Counted from the first letter of the stretch, positions 53,553 to 60,155 are shown. The stretch: DNA of 64,000 nt from Candidatus Bathyarchaeia archaeon (GCA_030019335.1 JASEET010000001.1:62001-126000), one strand, 5' to 3'. Program-made: numbers and translations. Notes: generated from the letters alone by a model not told the origin.

Positions 53553-55160
53553 TTAATTATGGCCCTTTAATGCTCGGTTTAGTGCATTTATACCGTTTTG
53601 TTTTCCCATCGCAAGCATGTATGATCCCAGTCTTGGACCATGTGGCACGCCTATGAGAATCTTGTATAAGATTTTGAAGAATCTTGCTGGTTTTAAACCG
53701 TGGTTTTTGGCTGAGTTGAATATGGCGTTTTGTATTTTTTCAGCTTCGTCTTCAACCCTCAACACTTCGATTAATTCTTTTACTGCTTCTTTTTCGTCCG
53801 TTGTCAGGCTTATTGTTGTTTCTTTTATTTCCTCAAAATCTCTTATCCAATTGAACGCGTATTCGATTCTCTTCTTCAGGTTTTCATCAAGCGTTTGACC
53901 CTTCTGCAAATACCCGTAACTTCGAAGTTTTTCGGTTACGAACTCTTCTTCACGCCCTTTAGGCACCATTTTAGCCAAGAAAGTTAGCAGATTGTATGGC
54001 ACATGAATGCTTGGCTTTGCAGGAGGCTTCAACGCCCAACAATATGTATATAAGCCTTGAAGCTTAGTCCGTTCTTTCTCGTCTCTTACTAATTTCTTTT
54101 CAAAGTATATATCTTCCAAATGGTCGAATTCGTTCATGTAAAACGGTATGTCTGTGACGTCTAATGTGCGTGTTCCGACAAACCTTTTCAACATAAGCAA
54201 GAGTAAAGACTGTGGTGAGCCGTAGCGGAACCAGACTTGCGGAGTCAAAACATTTCCTACGGAACTGGAAATTTTTCTTCCAGTTTTATCAAGAAACATT
54301 TCGTAGCGTGCGTGCATGGGCGGTTCATAACCTAAGACTTCCCGACAAATTCTGTCATTTATCCTCACAGAATCCTCTATGTCTTTCCCGTAAGCTTCAA
54401 ACCTTATGTCAAGAGCTTTCCATCTAGCCGCAAATTCACCCTTCCAACTGAGTTTGCCTTCGCCTTTAGTGATGTCTGCTTCCCCTTTGTAGCCGCAGCC
54501 TTCTATCCAACGTCCTTTTATTTCCATGCCTTCGCAGACATACAAGACTTTGTTTTCTTTTGGCAAGAATTCAGTGGCTTTTGTGGTGTATATGCGCCCG
54601 CAGTTTTTGCATACTGGAAAGTAAGGTAAGACCTCCACATAACGCTCTTGTCCAACTTCTTTTTTGACTATTTCTCCAACCCTCTTCGCGTTAAGAAGCA
54701 ACGTTCTAATTTCCTCGTTTAATAATCCCGTTTCATAGGCTTCTTTGCCAGACAGGTACTTGTATTCTATTCTACACCTATCCAAAGATTCCAAGAGCAA
54801 CAAACTCATGTGCACACCATAGCTTTGATGGCAACCAAAGGGGTCTGGAATAGCAGTCACTGGAAAACCCAAGTACTTGCCGAGAGATTTTGGCAGTCCA
54901 GCAGGGACTTTCCGTAAACCGTCCATGTCGTCACAGAAGGCAATCAACTCTGAATTATAGTCTTGCCCTCGAAGAGCTAAAGTAACAGCATAAGAACGAG
55001 CAGCATCACCTAAATTGCCAACATGAGGAAGCCCAGAAGCCCCAAGCCCCATCTCCGTTCTAATCAGGTCTAAGCTTCTGCCCAGCTTCCGCTCTCTTTC
55101 AATTATTCTTGCAGCCATTTTGTCGTACCATGTGCCGCGTCCAATTATTTTCTCGCTCAT
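53553..55160 (-). CDS. lysS: Lysyl-tRNA synthetase, class I
   Basis: Class I LysRS, the form used by most archaea instead of the class II enzyme. 535 residues. HIGH-like ASGLPHVGNLGDAARS, KMSKS-like KTGRKISSSVGN, and a zinc-binding cysteine set (VCKNCGRIY ... VCEGMEIKGRWIEGCGY). It begins at ATG 55160. Confidence 0.95.
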   Translation of the reverse strand: MSEKIIGRGTWYDKMAARIIERERKLGRSLDLIRTEMGLGASGLPHVGNLGDAARSYAVTLALRGQDYNSELIAFCDDMDGLRKVPAGLPKSLGKYLGFPVTAIPDPFGCHQSYGVHMSLLLLESLDRCRIEYKYLSGKEAYETGLLNEEIRTLLLNAKRVGEIVKKEVGQERYVEVLPYFPVCKNCGRIYTTKATEFLPKENKVLYVCEGMEIKGRWIEGCGYKGEADITKGEGKLSWKGEFAARWKALDIRFEAYGKDIEDSVRINDRICREVLGYEPPMHARYEMFLDKTGRKISSSVGNVLTPQVWFRYGSPQSLLLLMLKRFVGTRTLDVTDIPFYMNEFDHLEDIYFEKKLVRDEKERTKLQGLYTYCWALKPPAKPSIHVPYNLLTFLAKMVPKGREEEFVTEKLRSYGYLQKGQTLDENLKKRIEYAFNWIRDFEEIKETTISLTTDEKEAVKELIEVLRVEDEAEKIQNAIFNSAKNHGLKPARFFKILYKILIGVPHGPRLGSYMLAMGKQNGINALNRALKGHN

Positions 55161-55236: not shown

Positions 55237-55578
55237 TTATTTTCTTTTTAAAGCTGCTGTTATGGCTAAGGCTCCTAGTACAAGCAGTATTATTGCCAAC
55301 GAATAGAGCCAGAGCGCGCGTGTTGAGAAGAACCATGCTCCGCCTATCGCTATCAGTATTAGACCCAACGCAAACGTACTGAAGGGGCCGCGTTCGTATT
55401 TCTGCGGATTTGACGCTCTAAGTCCAGCCAGAACTATTGTCCAGCCACCATACAATGCAATAATCAGTGGAGGAACAAGTTGCCAATCGAGTCCGAGCGG
55501 CACAAGAATTATGCATACTACCAAGATTACTAGAAAAACGCCTATGGATAACAGTCCACGTTTTTCGCCTTCAGCCAT
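55237..55578 (-). CDS. Small membrane protein of the SPFH operon
   Basis: 113 residues with four hydrophobic helices (about 10-28, 32-52, 68-85, 88-108) and short charged ends. No enzyme motif. It is the last gene of the SPFH/zinc-ribbon operon, 12 bases after the SPFH gene, so it is probably the membrane partner of those proteins. Confidence 0.7.
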   Translation of the reverse strand: MAEGEKRGLLSIGVFLVILVVCIILVPLGLDWQLVPPLIIALYGGWTIVLAGLRASNPQKYERGPFSTFALGLILIAIGGAWFFSTRALWLYSLAIILLVLGALAITAALKRK

Positions 55579-55590
55579 TTTAGACTCGCC

Positions 55591-56559
55591 TTACTGGATT
55601 TTTTCTCCACATTCAGGACAGAACTTTGAGGTTGAAGGAACCGATTTTCCGCATTTTGGACATTTGGTTGTTTCAGCGGCTGGTGGAGTAAGTTGTGTTC
55701 CACATTCTGCGCAGAACTTTGACGTAGCTGGGACTTTTGCAGCACACTTTGGACAAATCACTAGGGCAGCGGCTGGTGCTTGCGCCGGACCTGTAGGCGT
55801 CATCACTTGCGGTATAAGCACCATTCCTGTTCCTAGGCCAGCTCCAGGCGATTTTCCAAGCTCTTCAGCAGCCTTCTTCACGGTCTCCATTCGCAACACT
55901 TCTTCCGGTGTAGTCCTTCCTGTTCTAAGCCAGAAGAGACGCTCACGGTATTCGGGTGTCGTGTCTATTCCTTCAAAGCGCAGGTCTGTTAATTCTAAAC
56001 CTATCCGCTTAAAGTAGTCTAAAATGGTGTTTTTCACAACCATGGATGTTTCATCAAGCCTAGTGAAAACAGTTAGCAAATCGTAATGCGAAAGCTCATC
56101 AATCACTTTTTCATTTAAGAAACCACGCAAGTAATCATTCACATCGCTGGTCATGTAGGCTTTTTGCCCACCAACAACTTCGTTCACAAACAGTTGTGGA
56201 TTTTCAACTTTAAACCAGAAAGAACCATGCACCTGCAAAGGCGCGAGCTCTGTGGTTTGGGCTCGCGTACCGTACTTTCCAGCAAAAACTTTTGTCGAAA
56301 CAAAGATTACTGCAGCTTTGAACGGTTTTTCCTTGAACCCTGCAATTCTTGATAATAATCCAGTTAGCAAAGGCAGATTCAGCGTTGTTAACGTGTGTCT
56401 TCCCGCTCCAAAAACGTCATAAGCTTTGCCGTCTCTAAAGAACGCTGCAACCTCATATTCGTGCACGATTAGCTGAGCGCCCCATGTGATTTCTTCATCC
56501 GGATACTTCCAAATAATGTCTTCCGGTCCCGGGTTTTTCCATTCTATGACTTGCGGCAT
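55591..56559 (-). CDS. SPFH-domain protein with double zinc ribbon
   Basis: 322 residues. An SPFH/stomatin-like domain with a YdjI-type start (VIEWKNPGPEDIIWKYPDEE), an FGAGRHTL beta region and a helix ending in TTPEYRERLFWLRTG, then a Gly/Pro linker and two zinc ribbons (CPKCAAKVPATSKFCAECG and CPKCGKSVPSTSKFCPECG). SPFH proteins scaffold membrane domains in stress responses. ATG 56559 has GGAGTGAG upstream. The preceding gene stops one base earlier, so they are coupled. Confidence 0.82.
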   Translation of the reverse strand: MPQVIEWKNPGPEDIIWKYPDEEITWGAQLIVHEYEVAAFFRDGKAYDVFGAGRHTLTTLNLPLLTGLLSRIAGFKEKPFKAAVIFVSTKVFAGKYGTRAQTTELAPLQVHGSFWFKVENPQLFVNEVVGGQKAYMTSDVNDYLRGFLNEKVIDELSHYDLLTVFTRLDETSMVVKNTILDYFKRIGLELTDLRFEGIDTTPEYRERLFWLRTGRTTPEEVLRMETVKKAAEELGKSPGAGLGTGMVLIPQVMTPTGPAQAPAAALVICPKCAAKVPATSKFCAECGTQLTPPAAETTKCPKCGKSVPSTSKFCPECGEKIQ

Positions 56560-56560
56560 T

Positions 56561-57115
56561 TCAACTCACTCCTAATATTACCTCGCCTCTCTTATCAAAA
56601 GTTTCCTCAAAAGCCTCCAACGTTTCAACCAAATGTTGTATATGCTCTTTCGCTTTATCAAATTCTTGTTTAATGACCTCTGTTTTAAACGTTTTAACTT
56701 CGCTGACTATCTTTTCAACACCATCAATCAACTTATTGTCAAAATCTATCATCCTATCAAGACTTGCCTCTTCAACCTTCACCACGTTAAAGAAGCCAGC
56801 ATACCCATAAGAAGCGTGATCGATCTTTGCTGCCACACGGTCAAATTTTGCAACAAGGCGGTCCATACCCGTTAGAACTTCAAACAAACGGCGGTCAGAC
56901 AATCTCTGAAAAACAGCTCTAAGGTCGTTCTTGGCTTCAGCCAACCTTCGGTATAAATGGTTTCTGATAAGCCTGTTAGACTCTCTTCGCAGCTCTTTCT
57001 CTTTGTAACCGCGGAATCCTGGAACTTCTGCAAGAATTCTTTCAGAAAGGCGCATCTGCTTTTTCGCCTTTTCATAAAAATCCTTTTTCTCACTCAAAAT
57101 TTTCTTTCTCCACAC
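56561..57115 (-). CDS. Coiled-coil protein of the SPFH operon
   Basis: 184 residues, almost entirely helical and charged (KKDFYEKAKKQMRLSERILA; ending VETLEAFEETFDKRGEVILG), with the look of a membrane-peripheral coiled coil. By position it takes the place that PspA-like proteins have in bacterial SPFH operons, but sequence similarity to PspA is not evident. It starts with GTG 57115. Confidence 0.65.
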   Translation of the reverse strand: MWRKKILSEKKDFYEKAKKQMRLSERILAEVPGFRGYKEKELRRESNRLIRNHLYRRLAEAKNDLRAVFQRLSDRRLFEVLTGMDRLVAKFDRVAAKIDHASYGYAGFFNVVKVEEASLDRMIDFDNKLIDGVEKIVSEVKTFKTEVIKQEFDKAKEHIQHLVETLEAFEETFDKRGEVILGVS

Positions 57116-57160
57116 ATCTTTTAATTATATAAATGCATGATTGTCGCATTTAAATTTTCG

Positions 57161-57913
57161 TTAAAATACTCCAAACCCAGTTGAGGGAATGTCACCTTTT
57201 ATGACATTACTGGTTGCTCCATCCATCCATAACTGGTAAGTCTTGCCCTTATACTCGTATTTTATGAACCATATAGGAGCATGCAAGTAAACTATTTGAT
57301 CTATTTTTATTTCATTTTTCATTTCAATGATTCGGTCCACATCTTGCTGAGCCGAATAACGATGATGCCCCTCAATCTCTTGCTTTGCCAGTCCCACCGC
57401 CTCGTTTTTGTCAATTTCACTGTTAAGAATCTTGGCGAAACTCTCGATTTTCCTGAAGTCATAGGGGATTTTACCCTCCAATGGCACATCATATTCCCTT
57501 GCTGGGAACTCAGTCGCCTTTCTCGCTAAAACCAGCCAATTATATTTTTTCTCAATCTTTCCTTCTTTAACAATGGGCGGAGTTATTCGCTCAAAAATCC
57601 CCTTATAGGTGGTTTCCACCTCTGCTGTTACAACCCAGAAAGGTGTATAAATCAAGGTTTTTTCTGTAATTTTTGATTTTTTCGCAAGGTCTGGAGGCTT
57701 TAGAAAGCCCGCACGCATCCAGTTCTTAACTTGCTCCTCAATTTGTGTTGAGTTATACTCGTTTAATAGCATGGAATGCTCAAAAGTGAAGGCTTTTCCA
57801 GTTTCTATCACAACAGTGTAGCCACAATATTTGCATGTTGCTATTATTTCACCCGGCTTAAACGATATTGGTGCGCCGCAGTTTGAACATCTAATTTCCT
57901 GAATTATTGACAT
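57161..57913 (-). CDS. Zinc-ribbon protein of the SPFH operon (YdjG-like)
   Basis: 250 residues with an N-terminal zinc ribbon (EIRCSNCGAPISF ... ATCKYCGYTVVI) and a larger C-terminal domain of alternating strands (LIYTPFWVVTAEVETTYKGI; HAPIWFIKYEYKGKTYQLWM). This layout resembles the zinc-ribbon component encoded with SPFH proteins in Bacillus-type ydj operons; recalled similarity only. Seven bases separate it from the upstream FAD gene. Confidence 0.65.
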   Translation of the reverse strand: MSIIQEIRCSNCGAPISFKPGEIIATCKYCGYTVVIETGKAFTFEHSMLLNEYNSTQIEEQVKNWMRAGFLKPPDLAKKSKITEKTLIYTPFWVVTAEVETTYKGIFERITPPIVKEGKIEKKYNWLVLARKATEFPAREYDVPLEGKIPYDFRKIESFAKILNSEIDKNEAVGLAKQEIEGHHRYSAQQDVDRIIEMKNEIKIDQIVYLHAPIWFIKYEYKGKTYQLWMDGATSNVIKGDIPSTGFGVF

Positions 57914-57920
57914 GTCGTTT

Positions 57921-59303
57921 TCACGTGTTTTGCTTTTCTCTCTTTATAATTTCTCTGGCTACAATTATACCGGATGCAGAAGCTTGAATCAGTCCTCTTG
58001 TAACGCCAGCTCCATCGCCTACAGTGAATAAATTATGGATTTTCGTTTCTAAACAGTTGCTTAACTGCAGTCTTGAAGAGTAGAATTTCACTTCAATGCC
58101 GTAGAGAAGAGTGTCTCTAGAGTTGATGCCTGGAGCTATTTTGTCTAATGCTTGAAGCATTTCCCTTATGTCAGTAAGGTAGCGATACGGCAAAACGAAG
58201 CTTAAGTCGCCTGGCGTAGCATTCTTCAATGTAGGAGTTACTACGCTTCTTGCTATCCTTTCAAGCGTTGACCTTCTGCCAGCCTCTAAATCGCCTAAAC
58301 GCTGCATTAATATGCCTCCGCTGAGAAGGTTCGAAAGCCTTGCGAGATATTTTCCGTAAGCTATTGGTTCTCCAAAGGGCTCAGTGAAGGACGTTCTAAC
58401 CAGAATTGCGAAGTTCGTGTTTTTTGTTTTTCTTTCTGCATAACTCTGACCGTTAACCGTTAAAACACCATTGTAAGATTCCGCTATGACTTCACCGTAT
58501 GGCGCAACACAGAAGGTTCGAACTTGATCATCAAAAAACTTTGAGTAGTAAACAAATTTCGGCTCATAAAGGACGCTTGTCAATTCTTCCATAACCGACG
58601 CTAAAACTTCAACCCTAATCCCCACATCAACCGGGTTATTAAGCGTCTTTAATCCTAAAGCTTGTGCCTCTGCTTGAAGCCATTCCGCTCCGCTTCTTCC
58701 GGGTGCAACAATCACATATTTTCCAAAGAATTTTTCACCGTTAACTGTTTCAACGCCTTCTACAACACCGTTTTTCACTATAACCCCCTTAACGTCTGTT
58801 TTCAATCTAATCTCAGCTTTGCTGTTGAGTTTTTGACGCATCTTTCTGAGGGTTTGGGCGCATTTTTCTGTGCCCATGTGCCGGATTTTTTGGCGGATGA
58901 GCTTCAAACCAGTCAATGATGCCTTTCGTTCAATATCCTCTACTTGTTCAATGTTTCCTCCGTAAATGTGTTCTGTTGCCCCAAATTTTAGGTAAATATT
59001 ATCCACATAGCCTATCAGTTCATAAAGCTCTCTTTCCGATATAAAGTGATTAAGCCAGCCACCAATTTCGGTGGATAAGGTGAGTTTACCATCACTGAAG
59101 GCTCCAGCTCCACCCCATCCAGATAAAAGCAAACACGGTTCGCAGTGAACACATTCAAATCCACGGCTTGCAGGACATTTGCGTTGGTTTATGTCTGGTC
59201 CCCTATCCAATATAAGGATGCTGAGGCTGGTGTTTTCTGAAATTTCAAGAGCCGAAAATATTCCGGCTGGACCTGCTCCAACAATTATTACATCATACTT
59301 CAA
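57921..59303 (-). CDS. FAD-dependent oxidoreductase (COG2509-like)
   Basis: 460 residues. FAD-binding VIIVGAGPAGIFSALE at the N-terminus, a Cys-rich CPASRGFECVHCEPCLLLSG stretch, GWGGAGAFSDGKL, VIAPGRSGAEW and a final FTVGDGAGVTRGLIQASASG. This layout matches the uncharacterised FAD-dependent dehydrogenases of COG2509. TTG 59303 with GGAGAT upstream is preferred over ATG 59348. It is the first gene of the SPFH run, so its activity may be linked to the membrane cluster, which is speculative. Confidence 0.83.
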   Translation of the reverse strand: MKYDVIIVGAGPAGIFSALEISENTSLSILILDRGPDINQRKCPASRGFECVHCEPCLLLSGWGGAGAFSDGKLTLSTEIGGWLNHFISERELYELIGYVDNIYLKFGATEHIYGGNIEQVEDIERKASLTGLKLIRQKIRHMGTEKCAQTLRKMRQKLNSKAEIRLKTDVKGVIVKNGVVEGVETVNGEKFFGKYVIVAPGRSGAEWLQAEAQALGLKTLNNPVDVGIRVEVLASVMEELTSVLYEPKFVYYSKFFDDQVRTFCVAPYGEVIAESYNGVLTVNGQSYAERKTKNTNFAILVRTSFTEPFGEPIAYGKYLARLSNLLSGGILMQRLGDLEAGRRSTLERIARSVVTPTLKNATPGDLSFVLPYRYLTDIREMLQALDKIAPGINSRDTLLYGIEVKFYSSRLQLSNCLETKIHNLFTVGDGAGVTRGLIQASASGIIVAREIIKREKQNT

Positions 59304-59401
59304 ATGCTTATCTCCTTGAAACCCAAAACTACATGTAACAACTAGCATATATTTTTAGCGAGCAGTTTAATGTTGAAATCAGTCTGCGCTCTAGAAAACT
59401 A

Positions 59402-59799: not shown

Positions 59800-60078
59800 T
59801 TAGTCTTTTATGGCTTCTAGGAGGCTCATCACGTTCCACAATCTTACTCGTGTATAAGGTGGCATGTTTGGGTCTTGCAAAATTTCATCTAGAAGGGATA
59901 TGGCGTTTGAAGCTTTAACGGCTGGCGTGTACTCTGCTGTTTGCAAGGCGCCCATTGAATTTTTTGCTGCTCTTCTAATATTTCTAGGCGTAGTAGTATC
60001 TTCAGAAACTTCTCCAAGCACGACTAATGCTTGTTTTATTCTCTCTTCATACTCCTGTAGTTTCTTCTTCCTAACCAT
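59800..60078 (-). CDS. UPF0147 family protein
   Basis: 92 residues, helical, archaeal-specific: LVVLGEVSEDTTTPRNIRRA followed by DPNMPPYTRVRLWNVMSLLE. It matches UPF0147, of unknown function. ATG 60078 has GGGGTGG six bases upstream; GTG 60087 of the ORF track is the alternative. It is divergent from the p27-like gene. Confidence 0.85.
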   Translation of the reverse strand: MVRKKKLQEYEERIKQALVVLGEVSEDTTTPRNIRRAAKNSMGALQTAEYTPAVKASNAISLLDEILQDPNMPPYTRVRLWNVMSLLEAIKD

Positions 60079-60155
60079 ATTTGCCACCCCACACAGATTC
60101 CGTGATAACCAAATTATATAGGCTTCTATACCTATTTATCTTGGGGTTTTAAAAC

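Follow-up and report, generated by a model that had tools for sequence, protein, structure and literature searches.

Genes at the locus

We examined a stretch of 64,000 nucleotides (nt) from Candidatus Bathyarchaeia archaeon (GCA_030019335.1, JASEET010000001.1:62001-126000), hereafter the window, which belongs to a genome of 1.64 Mb. A preliminary description had placed five tightly spaced genes at positions 55,237 to 59,303 and had likened them to the pspA-ydjGHI envelope-stress operon of Bacillus. The tight spacing was confirmed by an open reading frame (ORF) scan of the window. The five ORFs share the minus strand and run FAD, ZnR, CC, SPFH, MEM, with gaps of 1 to 63 nt. The features of the run are listed below, with protein lengths in amino acids (aa).

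56561-57097, minus strand: CC, predicted four-helix-bundle protein, core gene 1, 178 aa (ORF and homologue start)
55591-56559, minus strand: SPFH (YdjI-type Band_7_1) with C-terminal double zinc ribbon, core gene 2, 322 aa (Pfam)
55945-56511, minus strand: SPFH/Band_7_1 domain, residues 17-205 (Pfam)
55597-55761, minus strand: double zinc ribbon, residues 267-321, two C4 sites (Pfam and sequence)
55237-55578, minus strand: MEM, small protein with four predicted transmembrane (TM) segments, 113 aa, frequent third gene (hydropathy)
57161-57913, minus strand: ZnR, zinc-ribbon and beta-rich-domain protein, 250 aa, frequent partner
57149-57155, minus strand: TATA-like box ATTTAAA, 58 nt ahead of the CC TTG codon, probable promoter of CC-SPFH-MEM
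57921-59303, minus strand: FAD-dependent oxidoreductase (COG2509-like), neighbour; TTG start, and the ORF could open at 59348

CC and SPFH are separated by 1 nt, FAD and ZnR by 7 nt, and SPFH and MEM by 12 nt. The gap between ZnR and CC is 45 nt if CC starts at GTG 57115 (184 aa, 56561-57115) and 63 nt if it starts at TTG 57097. Since the homologues open at MSE..., which corresponds to the TTG codon in the window, TTG 57097 is probably the start.

CC and SPFH genes are paired in Bathyarchaeia

We sampled 201 Bathyarchaeia genomes and took 60 neighbourhoods around CC homologues. A same-strand SPFH gene lies right after CC in 59 of them, and in the remaining locus a short ZnR gene comes first, followed by SPFH. 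As the converse test, an independent search of the 201 genomes for the Band_7_1 family gave 120 full-length genes. We found CC directly upstream of 116 of these 120, and Band_7_1 downstream of 116 of 119 CC genes. The four Band_7_1 exceptions are two contig ends, one locus with a short ZnR gene in between, and one CC gene missed by the single-sequence search. Counted in both directions, the unpaired genes are at contig ends (G011, G074, G194), have a small ZnR gene between them (G183), or are recovered by better models (G041, G055). The gap between CC and SPFH is mostly 1 nt in close orthologues. The conserved unit is CC followed by the SPFH-double-zinc-ribbon gene, and not a uniform five-gene operon.

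The CC and SPFH distances are correlated (r 0.93, permutation maximum 0.10), and shared ancestry contributes to this value. The correlation is compatible with contact between the two proteins, and two co-inherited genes would correlate too. In one Bathyarchaeia genome (G181), CC occurs at four places together with SPFH genes, and both sequence classes are represented (L038, L059, L075, L087).

No PspA (PF04012) was found in the window genome, and none of the 201 Bathyarchaeia genomes (0/201) has a match over the cut-off.

Features of the CC and SPFH proteins

The SPFH protein matches Band_7_1 (PF13421) with an E-value of 4.1e-29 and 102 bits, against a cut-off of 24, and its gene is the sole Band_7 match in the window genome. 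Its C-terminus has two zinc ribbons over the cut-off (DZR, E 1.7e-12; Zn_Ribbon_1). No match in the PDB was found by sequence. In a simple hydropathy scan, on which all TM calls here rest, no TM segment was predicted in the window SPFH, CC or ZnR proteins, and MEM has four hydrophobic segments (residues 8-26, 34-52, 66-84 and 88-106).

CC has no Pfam family. The sole relative found was NCBIfam NF047596 (LIMLP_15305, Leptospira; E 1e-14). The window protein scores 54.6 bits, under the equivalog cut-off of 210, and is thus related to this family but not an equivalog member. All 34 CC members of our alignment (A1) match NF047596 (best E 6.8e-19), and on this profile similarity CC and LIMLP_15305 form one superfamily. 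In the literature, LIMLP_15305 was found only as a position given in one table listing non-coding RNAs. Seven residues (E41, E45, R51, Y105, L119, D126, R176) are invariant in the 34 CC homologues.

The preliminary description had proposed comparing the CC fold with PspA and ESCRT-III. We ran the prediction, and the AlphaFold2 (AF2) model is a four-helix bundle (helices 34-74, 78-103, 116-148 and 155-174) with a predicted local distance difference test score (pLDDT) of 81.5. A Foldseek search of this model against the PDB gave no match below E 0.05 and no PspA or Vipp1 among the first 50 matches; CdvB2 appeared in the list at E 0.6 with a probability of 0.12. Profile searches of CC against the PDB returned weak coiled-coil matches only. 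When CC profiles were compared with 30 PspA sequences by HHalign, the probability was 0.4-1.5%, while the positive control, archaeal CC against chloroflexotan CC, gave 100%. With hmmsearch filters off, a few CC members score very weakly on the PspA profile (best E 0.0015). The four-helix bundle, the HHalign probability of at most 1.5% and the lack of a significant Foldseek match do not support CC as a PspA or ESCRT-III relative. By both profile comparison and predicted fold, CC is not PspA.

Membrane and zinc-ribbon partners

The window ZnR protein has a single N-terminal C4 ribbon, which scores under the Pfam cut-off, and its four cysteines (C9, C12, C27, C30) are invariant across 44 homologues. 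Its AF2 model (pLDDT 83.7) gave nothing significant in a Foldseek search of the PDB. B. subtilis YdjG combines a zinc ribbon, a YpeB-like domain and a TM segment. In ZnR the ribbon is invariant, a TM segment was predicted in relatives and not in the window protein, and a PepSY/YPEB match was found in 5 of the 44 members only weakly (best E 0.01).

ZnR was recognised in 28 of the 60 neighbourhoods and lies beside CC in many Bathyarchaeia. About half of the 60 loci have a match to the MEM model close to the pair, though some of these matches are weak. A membrane or ZnR neighbour lies in the same directon in 35 of 59 Bathyarchaeia loci and in 32 of 42 wider loci. In Thermoproteota other than Bathyarchaeia, the C-terminal part of the ZnR homologues has one TM segment or two, and two copies of the gene are often present; at L293, L294, L295, L302 and L304, paired genes for TM-bearing ZnR proteins adjoin CC-SPFH. 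Directly upstream of CC, several loci of Chloroflexota encode a protein with two TM segments and a zinc ribbon at its end. The pattern that recurs is a membrane-anchored partner, a zinc-ribbon partner or both, which is a pattern and not a proof.

Class-II Bathyarchaeia loci also have a convergent gene for a protein of about 108 aa, whose N-terminus is hydrophobic and whose double zinc ribbon resembles the SPFH tail. It was found at the following places.

L072:8288-8614, convergent ~108-aa protein
L079:11364-11690, convergent ~108-aa protein
L081:11340-11663, convergent ~108-aa protein
L082 and L088, convergent ~108-aa protein

The flavoenzyme and the probable transcription units

The FAD protein matches FAD-depend_C (PF21688) with 48.9 bits against a cut-off of 27; the COG2509-like label rests on this match, and COG2509 itself was not searched. 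We found the flavoenzyme in 16 of the 60 neighbourhoods. No family other than that of the window (f1) has it next to the pair, and in f1 this is so in 39 genomes by hand count. It is present in 147 of the 201 Bathyarchaeia genomes, including many in which it is far from the pair or CC is absent. Since this adjacency is confined to one family, and the gene is common elsewhere without the pair, we treat the flavoenzyme as a neighbour. It is probably kept there by lineage synteny and is not a component.

A box of the form [ACT]TTTAAA lies 28-64 nt ahead of CC in 17 of 20 orthologues. At the same position the box was found ahead of SPFH in 0/20, MEM in 0/20, ZnR in 0/17 and FAD in 0/11 cases, and ahead of other genes in 26/357. 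Shuffled sequence gave a mean count of 1.2 and a maximum of 5. The conserved box suggests that CC-SPFH-MEM has its own promoter. A distance of 0.8-3.2 kb separates ZnR from CC in four orthologues, with CC-SPFH-MEM still joined. Genes of 811-968 aa lie between ZnR and CC-SPFH at the orthologous loci L041 and L042. The simplest reading is that there are two units, FAD-ZnR and CC-SPFH-MEM.

These results revise the preliminary description. The run had been taken as one operon, and the TATA-like box suggests a unit that opens at CC. The flavoenzyme had been counted as a component, which its adjacency in a single family does not support. The expectation that the genes stay together in relatives held for CC-SPFH and partly for ZnR and MEM, and failed for the flavoenzyme outside the window's family.

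Downstream of the run, on the minus strand, is the gene for a class I lysyl-tRNA synthetase (53553-55160; PF01921, E 1.7e-103), which we list as context. Many relatives in the window's family have a gene of 533-549 aa at this place. On the other side, a cupin gene comes before the run, and upstream of it positions 59800-60087 encode a UPF0147 protein (NCBIfam 'stationary phase-response protein', SRE_fam, E 2.8e-28).

Distribution beyond Bathyarchaeia

For the wider search we used a profile of the 34 CC members, and the Chloroflexota loci were called profile-first. Of 397 Thermoproteota genomes, 205 have CC, including some closed ones of 2-3 Mb, and so do 42 of 301 Chloroflexota genomes. A scan of named genomes gave records of Bathyarchaeota, Nitrososphaerota, Thermofilales, Geothermarchaeota, 'Euryarchaeota' and Chloroflexi. 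SPFH adjoins CC in most of the wider loci examined in Thermoproteota and Chloroflexota. At the Chloroflexota loci L240-L249, L254, L258 and L259, an SPFH-less CC gene lies beside a gene for a FAD/2Fe-2S oxidoreductase-like protein of about 465 aa, an aldolase-like gene or both (two were read).

One Chloroflexota locus (L335:3567-6835, genome G765) encodes a TM-zinc-ribbon protein, CC, PspA and an SPFH-double-zinc-ribbon protein in this order, with gaps of 23-36 nt. PspA was matched with E 2e-48 and Band_7_1 with DZR at E 2.5e-62; CC is 319 aa long here and has an additional C-terminal domain. This is the only CC-PspA adjacency seen. The locus links the CC-SPFH pair directly to Psp-type systems. 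Since CC and PspA lie side by side, CC is a separate component and not simply a replacement of PspA, and the two are different components able to share one SPFH partner. The preliminary description had seen a different helical protein at the place of PspA; a fixed place beside SPFH in PspA-less genomes bears this out, while simple replacement does not fit the Chloroflexota locus.

Within Chloroflexota, a PspA match was found in 10 of 42 genomes with CC and in 151 of 259 without CC (Fisher p 4e-5, a statistic that ignores relatedness). This anticorrelation is suggestive and compatible with overlapping roles.

Discussion

The closest known system is pspA-ydjGHI of Bacillus subtilis, and the proposed likeness to it held in part. 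Both loci encode a YdjI-type soluble SPFH protein with zinc ribbons, together with zinc-ribbon and small membrane partners beside a helical protein. They differ in that the window genome has no PspA, a four-helix bundle unrelated to it by sequence lies at the helical place, and none of the five window proteins matches the TPM domain of YdjH. Experiments in B. subtilis showed that YdjI depends on YdjG and YdjH for its membrane localisation, and that PspA does not get to the membrane when YdjI, YdjG or YdjH is missing (PMC8581546). Surveys of Psp systems describe, in their accessible text, band-7 operons with and without PspA (PMC11237479; PMC9239133). Those band-7 operons that lack the PspA dyad (Ravi et al. 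2024, PMC11237479) resemble our locus in the idea of a band-7 module that has lost PspA or has another protein instead; they differ in carrying DUF4247/DUF2617 or SHOCT with polyamine genes, and that accessible text mentions no counterpart of CC.

Among archaeal systems, an ESCRT survey ties SPFH to ESCRT loci, as far as its available sections report (PMC10936438). The methanogen 'Meth_adaptin' loci described there (SPFH-coiled-coil-zinc-ribbon protein) share an archaeal SPFH, a zinc ribbon and a membrane-remodelling context with ours. The window locus differs from them in having no recognisable gene for Vps4 or ESCRT-III and in encoding the helical part as a separate gene. The SPFH8 and SPFH9 families are, in the portion of PMC2636767 consulted, likewise soluble prokaryotic SPFH proteins without a TM segment or an NfeD partner. 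That portion reports no operon partner, and the likeness to Band_7_1 is by description only.

SPFH proteins assemble ring or cage-like scaffolds. We give about an even chance to the interpretation that the CC-SPFH core, usually with MEM or ZnR, is a PspA-less SPFH membrane-maintenance module, in which stress induction and action on the membrane are inferred. In this mechanism, the soluble SPFH-double-zinc-ribbon protein would form such a scaffold on the inner membrane face. Because it has no TM helix, it would need a tethering partner. This may be the four-TM MEM protein in the window, TM-bearing ZnR in other Thermoproteota and the TM-zinc-ribbon proteins in Chloroflexota, as YdjG and YdjH hold YdjI. 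CC, made in step with SPFH, would bind it as an obligate partner and take the place that PspA has beside YdjI in Bacillus. The complex may then maintain or remodel the membrane in PspA-less cells. The CC-SPFH contact, the tethering, the membrane effect and the stress role are thus proposed by analogy.

Several observations weigh against this module. Neither a membrane nor a ZnR partner lies in the directon of 24 of the 59 class loci. CC occurs without an adjacent SPFH in one genus of family f41 and in part of Chloroflexota. HHalign and Foldseek matched CC to no membrane-remodelling protein, either by sequence or by fold. An amphipathic N-terminal helix was considered as a membrane anchor of CC and was rejected, since its moment (mean 0.37, shuffles 0.30) is unconvincing. 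We put forward more tentatively, as possible but below even chances, the stronger proposal that YdjI-type SPFH proteins have in CC an obligate partner not named before, and that archaea without PspA, and some Chloroflexota, use the pair as their membrane-maintenance machine, a non-ESCRT-III helical subunit doing the job of PspA.

The pair could instead be a constitutive chaperone or quality-control scaffold for the assembly or turnover of membrane proteins, like HflK/C for FtsH, with the SPFH cage collecting clients, CC as adaptor and the zinc ribbons binding clients. Some SPFH families are known to be linked to FtsH (PMC2636767, in the portion consulted), a chaperone-like role of band-7 proteins in Psp operons has been proposed (PMC11237479, accessible text), and the presence of the pair in roughly half of the sampled Thermoproteota genomes suits housekeeping. 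But no recurrent protease or chaperone gene was seen in the 60 neighbourhoods, judged by gene sizes and five profiles, with other neighbours unannotated, and the Chloroflexota PspA locus points to the quality control of membrane and not of protein. We regard this explanation as rather unlikely. It is improbable, to a greater degree, that CC and SPFH are merely co-transcribed companions without physical contact. The SPFH-less CC genes agree with such an arrangement, whereas the near-complete pairing across one phylum and into another, the several pairs in genome G181 and the joint divergence of the two proteins argue for a closer tie.

A functional stress operon of all five genes, flavoenzyme included, would fit the short gaps in the window and the gene order kept in many genomes of its family. 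The flavoenzyme's confinement to that family as an adjacent gene, the promoter-like box that splits the run in 17 of 20 orthologues and the interruption between ZnR and CC in four orthologues, with CC-SPFH intact, make it very unlikely. Least probable of all is that CC is a highly diverged PspA or ESCRT-III protein and the locus an ordinary Psp operon. Its helical nature, its place beside the YdjI-type protein and the very weak unfiltered PspA scores would be expected of such a protein, but the HHalign comparison with its positive control, the Foldseek result and the coexistence of CC and PspA in one Chloroflexota locus speak against it.

In the accessible open-licence literature we found no description of the CC family, the CC-SPFH pair or such a locus in Sulfolobus or Bathyarchaeota. 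To our knowledge, nearly all that is known of envelope-stress systems comes from PspA. The strictly paired and deeply conserved CC-SPFH genes in Thermoproteota, apparently including closed genomes of isolate quality, provide a defined gene pair for deletion and purification. The module also suggests that what stays constant in such systems is SPFH, and not PspA, and that the helical partner is changeable.

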